Positions 11,490 through 12,960 of a stretch of 64,000 nt of DNA are shown piece after piece. Where the stretch lies: NCBI GenBank assembly GCA_000827205.1, contig KN832555.1, positions 1,104,893-1,168,892 of the forward strand, given 5' to 3'. The stretch's first letter is position 1, and every line of letters starts with the position of its first letter. The position numbers and the translations under genes were made by a program. This stretch comes from Plicaturopsis crispa FD-325 SS-3 (lineage: Eukaryota > Basidiomycota > Agaricomycetes > Amylocorticiales > Amylocorticiaceae). The notes under the pieces are model-generated. The model was not told the DNA's origin and did not search any database. It saw nothing but the letters and a program-made list of their open reading frames with translations.

Positions 11490-12960
11490 ATGCCTGCAAC
11501 GCGTAGCTCGCGTCGGCGCAGTGAAGGCGCGGGCGCGTTGCTCAGTGAACTTCTCGGTGTGGCAGAACCATCACATGCGGATGGCACTCTGCCTGCCGCA
11601 CGCCGGTCCACTGGCAGGAAATCCACTACTAGTACAGCTGGTGGTTGGGATGGTTCAGTGGTGATAAATGGGACCAAGATCCAGACGACCAAGGTATTTG
11701 ATACTTTCTGGTGGTTTGCCGCTGAAAGGCATCGGGTGAACATACACCGCCAAAAAGGGTTGCCTGAGGACGAGTGAGTGGGGTCTACTTACTTCTTGAT
11801 GTTCCCAGCCTCTGAGCATGGTCCATTTTACCCATAGGTGGACGGACGACACCATTCTGAAGAAATATCACTTCTGTGGGTGTCCTGTGAAGACAGTGGT
11901 CCTACGGTGTACTGACCTGGTTGGCACAGGCAATCCGTTCCGCGTTGCTGACCGAGTCAGTCAATACATCATCAGCGATGTGGTTGAAAAGGGTTCCCAG
12001 GATCCCGACGAGATCGTTTTCCGCGTAACGCTTTTCAATATGTTCACCAAAATTGACACATGGGAACTCCTCGAAGAGGAGCTTGGGCCGCTCACCTGGG
12101 CGTCCTTCGACCGGAACCAGTACGGACGCGTCCTTCGTCGGGCCAAAGACAGTGGCATCAGCCTCTATACCGGCGCGTTCCAGAAGCCAGGACCCAAGCT
12201 CGGGAACCACGACACTTTCATGGACCATCTCGAGCTCCTCCAGATGCTCATGGAGCACGACCTCCGCGGTATATGCCAGCGCGCAGCGTACATCGTCGAC
12301 GTCTTCGAATTCCTCATGTCCTGGCCGAGCTTGGCCGACTTCACAGCCTACCAGCTCCTAATCAACCTCTCCTACACCCCCGTGCTCAACTTCTGCGAGT
12401 CCGACTTCGTCGTCCTCGGCCTCGGCGCCATCTCCGGCCTCAAGAAGTGCTTCCGCGTGTCTGACGGGACGCACGGCGTCGAGATCGTGCAGTGGATGCA
12501 GCGCACGCAGCACGAGCACTTCGCGCGCCTCGGGCTCGCGCTCCCCGAGCTCGGGCCCGAGCGTCGCGTGATGCAGCTCGTGGACTTTGAGCACACGCTG
12601 TGCGAGGTGGACAAGTACGCGCGCGTCAAGCACCGCGATGTGCACGGCGCGCGCTCGCAGCTCAAGAAGTGCTACACGCCCTCTTCGAAGCCGTACCCGC
12701 GGGAACTTCGCCTGCCGCGGGCGTGGTCGCACCCCGCCCGGCAGCGTCCTCGGGTCAGGCCCACGCCGGTTCAGAAGGTCGAGAAACGATACATTATCAG
12801 CAGGCTTGTGGATGAGCGGCAGGTCGATGGGAAAACCGAGTACCAGGTGTACTGGTTGGGCTATCCGCCATCGGACGCGACATGGGAGCCGGAGTGGTCA
12901 CTACTCGAGGATGCGCCGTCTGCCCTGGAGGAGTATCGCAAGTCCAAGCGTAAGCGCTAG
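11490..12960 (+). CDS. 5-hmdU DNA kinase helical-domain protein fused to a C-terminal chromodomain
   Basis: Exons 11490-11773, 11838-11875 and 11930-12960 give 450 residues. From about residue 70 to 335 the sequence follows the helical domain that I recall as named for 5-hydroxymethyl-dU DNA kinases: FWWFAAERHRVNIHRQ, LKKYHFCNPFRVADRVSQYI, EIVFRVTLFNMFTKIDTWEL, GISLYTGAFQKPGPKLG, then FTAYQLLINLSYTP and HEHFARLGLALPELGPERR. No kinase P-loop (GxxxxGK) is seen, so catalysis is doubtful. The last 59 residues are a chromodomain: KRYIISRLVDERQVDGKTEY, then QVYWLGYPPSDATWEPEW, with Tyr, Trp and Tyr at the three aromatic-cage positions that bind methyl-lysine. A basic linker (RQRPRVRPTPVQKVEKR) joins them. 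The intron 11876-11929 splits Cys of HFC|NPF. A nuclear chromatin role is inferred. The chromodomain resembles those on chromovirus integrases, a possible source. Confidence 0.85.

Follow-up and report, generated by a model that had tools for sequence, protein, structure and literature searches.

A single-copy gene of Plicaturopsis crispa joins a HMUDK_hel domain of likely bacterial origin to a chromodomain

One gene in the window, the 64,000-nucleotide stretch of the Plicaturopsis crispa genome analysed here, raises the question of what a domain named after 5-hydroxymethyl-dU (5-hmdU) kinases is doing in the same fungal protein as a chromodomain, and where that domain came from. The first-pass annotation had proposed a 450-residue fusion of the two, an architecture that is borne out by Pfam profiles and by a single open exon, as described below.

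Gene structure and domain architecture

The gene lies on the + strand, as do all of its features, and runs from ATG to TAG at 11490..12960, with a spliced translation of 450 aa. Exon 1 (11490..11773) encodes a basic N-terminus and the start of the helical domain, the PF18723 match beginning at residue 67. It is followed by intron 1 (11774..11837; 64 nt, GTGAGT..TAG), by exon 2 (11838..11875), placed by the spliced translation, and by intron 2 (11876..11929; 54 nt, GTGGGT..CTGAC..CAG), which is in frame and easily missed. Exon 3 (11930..12960, stop included) is a single open frame that takes in most of the helical domain, then the linker, then the chromodomain. Both introns are GT..AG and of the spliceosome type by sequence. 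With intron 2 kept, PF18723 matches at 337.7 bits in two stretches, while its removal gives 358.5 bits in one stretch covering profile positions 1-280 of 281. Retention of this intron was rejected, given the lower score and an insertion that is absent from six aligned phage relatives.

Profile searches, which had been suggested as a check on the architecture, recovered both domains. The HMUDK_hel domain (PF18723, aGPT-Pplase clade 1) spans residues 67-346 (11688..12645, introns inside) at 358.5 bits against a cut-off of 25 (E 3.2e-107), so the domain previously placed at residues 70-335 is present but its limits are wider. The same domain matches phrog_2396 at 137.1 bits in the reading with intron 2 retained. 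A basic linker (residues 347-394; 12646..12789) leads to the chromodomain (residues 395-445; 12790..12942), which matches PF00385 at 49.3 bits against a cut-off of 25.1 (E 4.6e-13). With these E values, a chance match to either domain is excluded. The frame from 11800 to 12960 is free of stops and holds PF18723 profile positions 41-280 as well as the chromodomain. A gene-fusion artefact was rejected, as a single open exon spans the chromodomain and most of HMUDK_hel; the fusion is genuine and its architecture firm.

The gene sits more than 1.1 Mb into its contig, flanked by a 6-phosphogluconolactonase/isomerase-family gene and, on the other strand, a Ras-family GTPase gene. A profile search of the whole assembly (33.2 Mb, 49 contigs) returned one PF18723 match, so the family, described earlier as expanded in basidiomycetes, is single-copy in this one genome. 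Searching the genome with the whole protein gave no further match covering the helical domain, all other matches being to the tail only. PF18723 is also rare more widely: among 395 genomes of one phylum 7 have it, and in a second phylum it occurs in 5 of 398, with the centre genome counted each time. Our literature search found no report of a HMUDK_hel-chromodomain fusion, and an earlier mention in print may exist. Iyer et al. 2013 reportedly treats basidiomycete members of related families.

Family name, fold and relatives of the helical domain

The Pfam scan of the 450-aa protein found no P-loop family match, in agreement with the first-pass annotation. The conclusion drawn there, that the protein is not an obvious kinase, says little, because in phage SN1 and in a Vibrio phage the PF18748 kinase is a separate gene. 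In the SN1 cluster, PF18748 (the P-loop 5-hmdU kinase) and PF18724 (the amino acid:DNA transferase) are encoded apart from the PF18723 protein (SN1_020), which is itself annotated as alpha-glutamyl/putrescinyl thymine pyrophosphorylase clade 1 (aGPT-Pplase clade 1). Kinase-like ORFs were detected in at least 36 of 105 phage/MAG loci, and a PF18748-like ORF in at least 1 of the 27 loci of the clade to which the fungal protein belongs (L060), both counts being lower bounds from short flanks. In six phage records PF18748 matched three (two over the cut-off) and left three without a match. The "kinase" label for HMUDK_hel is thus misleading, as the kinase, where found, is nearly always a separate gene, and fungal proteins should not be assigned a function from the Pfam name "kinase, helical domain".

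Kinase and helical domain share an ORF in one case only, a viral ORF (L073, 5185-6933) in which residues 22-184 are a P-loop 5-hmdU kinase and residues 273-560 are HMUDK_hel. ORFs of this type may explain the Pfam name. In addition, the Brevibacterium phage LuckyBarnes (L003, 3717-7732) encodes a thymidylate synthase (TS) and two TET-associated glycosyltransferases followed by HMUDK_hel, with no PF18748 match in the whole record, making it a candidate for a phage with glycosylated hydroxymethyluracil.

The helical domain likely adopts a glycosylase-like (HhH) DNA-binding fold, judging from predicted structures. The Hymenobacter relative, modelled by AF2 with a pLDDT of 88 and a pTM of 0.87, was compared with solved structures by Foldseek, and its top two matches were the 5-PmdU glycinyltransferase PUGT (8z2n, probability 1.00, E 0.021, TM 0.40/0.48; 8z2m, probability 0.93). 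Later matches were to an unrelated nucleoporin (probability 0.08) and then, among others, to AlkA-like and OGG1 DNA glycosylases. For the model of the fungal protein (pLDDT 76), built from its own frame lacking exon 1 and keeping intron 2, the first match was endonuclease III-3 (probability 0.90, E 0.31), the rest of the best 50 rows having a probability of at most 0.05. No Foldseek match of either model reaches E 0.001. By profile comparison (hhalign), HMUDK_hel aligned with the transferase family PF18724 at E 5.8e-4 and a probability of only 29. A search of PDB sequences with the HMUDK_hel profile gave one match only (E 0.9), an NCBIfam scan of three proteins gave none, and Pfam detected no DNA glycosylase in the fungal protein by sequence.

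The fungal protein was compared with bacterial, plasmid, phage, viral-contig and MAG sequences and is the sole fungal row. In a 48-row tree it groups with eight bacterial sequences, seven from plasmids and one from a chromosome, and with a sequence from a viral contig, at an SH-aLRT of 86. A 44-row tree, to which 17 more rows of this bacterial clade were added (L157, a split gene, being left out), places it inside the clade as sister to four actinobacterial plasmid proteins (one Mycobacterium, three Streptomyces; 91/86 ufboot/SH-aLRT); it forms a long branch there, and the long-branch Nodularia phage row is placed in the same clade. Holding the clade with the fungal protein together (27 clade rows, without Nodularia) is not rejected (p-AU 0.361), which by itself is no proof of the clade. 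Identity to the fungal protein reaches 41% (129/313) for the Mycobacterium plasmid protein (L145) and is 32-41% for Hymenobacter and six of the seven plasmid rows, 28% for Parabacteroides and 33% for the viral contig L060; it is 21-29% for phage/MAG rows outside the clade and 23% for phage SN1. The PF18723 scores are 280-383 bits for five bacterial clade proteins and L060, 358.5 for the fungal protein, and 138-257 for five phage proteins, with SN1 at 189. The link to base-hypermodifying phages made initially therefore gives way to a bacterial one, since the nearest relatives found are in the bacterial clade. A phage origin was rejected on the trees and identities, and the helical domain looks bacterial in origin, with transfer probably running from bacterium to fungus.

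The 27 clade loci are L060 and 26 bacterial ones: Hymenobacter, 15 out of 22 matching plasmid records and another 10 from genomes. Neighbours at all 27 were sought by phmmer with queries taken from the clade loci, a design that favours the clade: MazG_C was found in 15/27, a CapP-like/ImmA protease in 14/27, Nmad2 in 7/27, TIR in 6/27, dCTP deaminase in 6/27 and a dTMP-kinase-like protein in 4/27. A divergent TS homologue occurs in 14/27 and a true TS in 7/27 (18/27 with either). Among the 105 other (phage/MAG) loci, which include some duplicate records (e.g., L061/L003 and L141/L039) and leave out L165-L176 as shorter copies of others, 80 have a true TS and none was matched by the remaining clade-derived queries. 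The two kinds of TS were counted apart, the "thymidylate synthase" annotation of the cassette having been rejected at face value: the L142 protein so annotated has no Pfam TS match, and profile comparison supports its being a divergent TS homologue (E 1.6e-8).

Several loci share a gene order. On cyanobacterial and rhizobial plasmids (L142, 3232-6980; L143, 2108-6058; L152, 2154-6137; L147, 3097-7029), a CapP-like protease, the divergent TS homologue, HMUDK_hel and a MazG-type pyrophosphohydrolase follow one another, a candidate cassette for defence or base modification that has not been catalogued. PADLOC capP is matched by the L142 protease at 1.1e-13. TIR, Nmad2, HMUDK_hel and radical SAM genes stand in a row on a Parabacteroides plasmid (L146, 3913-7003). 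On a cyanobacterial plasmid (L151, 114-2175), the gene for a CBASS cGAMP-activated phospholipase effector overlaps the start of the HMUDK_hel gene by 11 nt. None of the listed neighbours was found at L145, the closest in sequence to the fungal protein, or at L148 and L156, and PADLOC 2023 has no model matching the two clade HMUDK_hel proteins scanned. The CapP-like protease, TS-homologue and MazG_C neighbours suggest that the bacterial clade may serve anti-phage defence. A passage of PMC13092281 names 5-hydroxymethyluracil kinase and thymidylate synthase among domains reported as validated in predicted anti-phage systems; its "5hmdUk" may be PF18723 or PF18748. No cassette neighbour lies beside the fungal gene, as its two flanking genes are of other families.

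Changed residues, chromodomain and host genome

The fungal helical domain departs from its relatives at positions that are otherwise nearly fixed. At N253 (codon AAC, 12364..12366) the bacterial and phage relatives examined have Asp, in 115/115 distinct strings of the hmmalign set (146 HMUDK_hel ORFs) and in 47/47 relatives of the MAFFT set. At T203 (codon 12214..12216) they mostly have Lys, in 110/111 lettered rows (hmmalign) and 45/47 (MAFFT). In a leave-one-out comparison of 24 columns in which conservation is at least 90%, the fungal protein departs in six, the highest of 48 rows and tied with the Nodularia phage; in the Asp column it is the sole departing row of the 48. It keeps 14 of 20 tabulated conserved positions, among them R80, N109, R112, D115, C332, E333 and K336. 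In the hhalign comparison with the transferase family, the Asp column falls on a Met that is next to an Asp, at the probability of 29. The protein is a PF18723 member by descent and atypical by its residues. We infer that the Asp is catalytic in the relatives; the simplest reading is then that activity was lost and the fold kept, and that the domain would recognise rather than act, because the invariant Asp is lost.

The chromodomain has a complete aromatic cage, Y395 (12790-12792), W416 (12853-12855) and Y419 (12862-12864), just as the first-pass annotation had seen, and it plausibly reads a methylated histone lysine. Among solved structures, its nearest are CBX1 (38.5 bits) and CBX3. The first-pass annotation had likened it to the chromodomains of chromovirus integrases. 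The tail with its linker (residues 350-445) has its best own-genome matches in retroelement-like ORFs, at about 25 bits; against it, human CBX1 has a pairwise score of 120, and none of the genome's 24 other chromodomain matches exceeds 91; two of these 24 were checked with Pfam and belong to retroelement integrases. No HP1 gene was identified in the genome. As HP1 evolves slowly and the 25-row chromodomain tree is not resolved, an HP1-type origin is no more than slightly favoured over capture from a chromovirus.

In the P. crispa genome, Tet_JBP gave five matches over the cut-off, one of which contains an internal stop, plus a sixth that is weak. All six are on contigs 1, 3, 5, 28 and 31 and the window is on contig 2, so no TET/JBP gene was found in the window, as had been remarked. 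Three of the matches (C28:22529, C31:73867 and C1:3185061) lie at distances of 2.0, 4.3 and 7.7 kb, respectively, from a KDZ transposase match, in line with the transposon-encoded TET/JBP enzymes of basidiomycetes mentioned in a passage of PMC13297926, which calls them functionally uncharacterised so far and also describes one characterised basidiomycete TET acting on 5mC and 6mA. Moreover, there are four DNA methylase matches over the cut-off. Given the Tet_JBP matches, oxidised bases can probably be made in P. crispa, but not by genes found near the fusion gene. PF18748 had no match in the genome, nor in 14 controls, with a tool that matched 3/6 phage records; PF18724 likewise had none, in a search in which the 14 controls were also silent and which had no positive control.

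Candidate roles and known systems

We tentatively favour, at somewhat less than even confidence, the reading that a bacterial base-modification or defence domain was captured by a fungus, tethered to chromatin with methylated histones, and works as a degenerate sensor of altered bases. A fungal ancestor would have acquired a HMUDK_hel gene from the bacterial clade that has it next to genes for CapP-like proteins, MazG_C and TS homologues, and the gene would have become joined to an HP1-like chromodomain. The HhH glycosylase-like domain would bind DNA and handle a base, while the chromodomain would dock on a histone lysine in its methylated form, with H3K9me as the likeliest mark. So tethered, the protein could sense, within silent chromatin, DNA with an altered base made by TET/JBP or the thymidine pathway and recruit others, making no base modification of its own. 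A sensor is more likely than an enzyme, since the Asp and the near-invariant Lys have both been replaced and the searches detected neither a kinase nor a transferase gene as partner. This is weakened by the 14/20 conserved positions kept, which leave enzyme activity possible, and by the substrates of the characterised basidiomycete TET, 5mC and 6mA and not T in that passage of PMC13297926. A narrower version of this reading is a little less probable than either of the first two alternatives below: a fungus would have captured a component of a bacterial anti-phage cassette working on thymidine-derived bases and made of it a heterochromatin protein that senses jointly a histone methyl mark and a DNA base that is oxidised or otherwise non-standard, the loss of the Asp having turned a writer into a reader.

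An active enzyme, still modifying or removing a base and delivered by its chromodomain to methylated-histone chromatin as in DNMT5, is unlikely. The near-complete domain (358.5 bits), its retained positions and the precedent of fungal DNMT5, described in a passage of PMC13297926 as a DNA-modifying enzyme with a chromodomain, speak for it, but the invariant Asp is Asn, the near-invariant Lys is Thr, 6/24 of the most conserved columns are changed (no row of the 48 has more, and one long-branch phage row has as many), and the partners are not detected. We give the same low probability to a bacterial anti-phage module that has been turned to a new use at heterochromatin, against transposons or against foreign DNA, for which recognition of a modified base would be optional. 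The clade loci with a CapP-like protease (14/27), MazG_C (15/27), TIR (6/27) or, once, a CBASS phospholipase, as counted by phmmer, fit such a factor, as do the patchy distribution (7/395 and 5/398 genomes) and the validated anti-phage domains in the passage of PMC13092281; however, "5hmdUk" there could be either family, PADLOC 2023 lacks a model for the two clade proteins scanned, and the fungal gene stands between a 6-phosphogluconolactonase/isomerase-family and a Ras-family GTPase gene.

Less probable again is a domesticated structural chromatin protein, whose helical domain would add only sequence-independent DNA or protein binding: the changed residues and the basic N-terminus and linker would suit it, but the conserved charged residues R80, R112, D115, E333 and K336 are kept. 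As for a mis-joined model, contamination or a pseudogene, the changed conserved residues are the sole point in favour, and two spliceosome-type introns, a frame open throughout and a place more than 1.1 Mb into the contig between ordinary genes make it highly improbable. The pairing of a histone-mark reader with a domain from the world of thymidine hypermodification and defence makes the protein a concrete candidate reader of TET/JBP products, and the fusion points to a way in which eukaryotic epigenetics could take up a bacterial conflict system.

Several known systems resemble parts of this protein. Among amino acid:DNA transferases, PUGT (PF18724; 8z2n) is the first fold match of the Hymenobacter model, and the C-terminal LC motif region aligned in the profile comparison, but they belong to a separate Pfam family and the scores are weak (E 0.021; profile E 5.8e-4, probability 29). 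The HhH DNA glycosylases (endonuclease III-3, 8a5g; AlkA-like, 2h56; OGG1) weakly resemble it in overall helical fold by Foldseek, at E above 0.3 and with no Pfam sequence match. With HMUDK_hel/aGPT-Pplase clade 1 proteins such as SN1_020, the fungal protein has in common a near-complete domain match and 14/20 tabulated conserved positions; it differs in its fused chromodomain, the Asp to Asn and Lys to Thr changes, and the lack of a detected kinase or transferase. The closest sequences found, among which it nests, are those of the bacterial clade annotated as "nucleotide kinase domain-containing protein" (Allocoleopsis, Rhizobium, Streptomyces and Mycobacterium plasmids; Hymenobacter), all of which keep the Asp, with no chromodomain in the five scanned with Pfam. 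The HP1/CBX chromodomains are similar in their full cage and in 21/54 residues identical to CBX1, whereas the fungal protein has no chromoshadow domain match and carries two additional residues following the WEPE motif region. Finally, fungal DNMT5, as presented in a passage of PMC13297926, shares the idea of a chromodomain steering a DNA-base domain, with a different catalytic domain.
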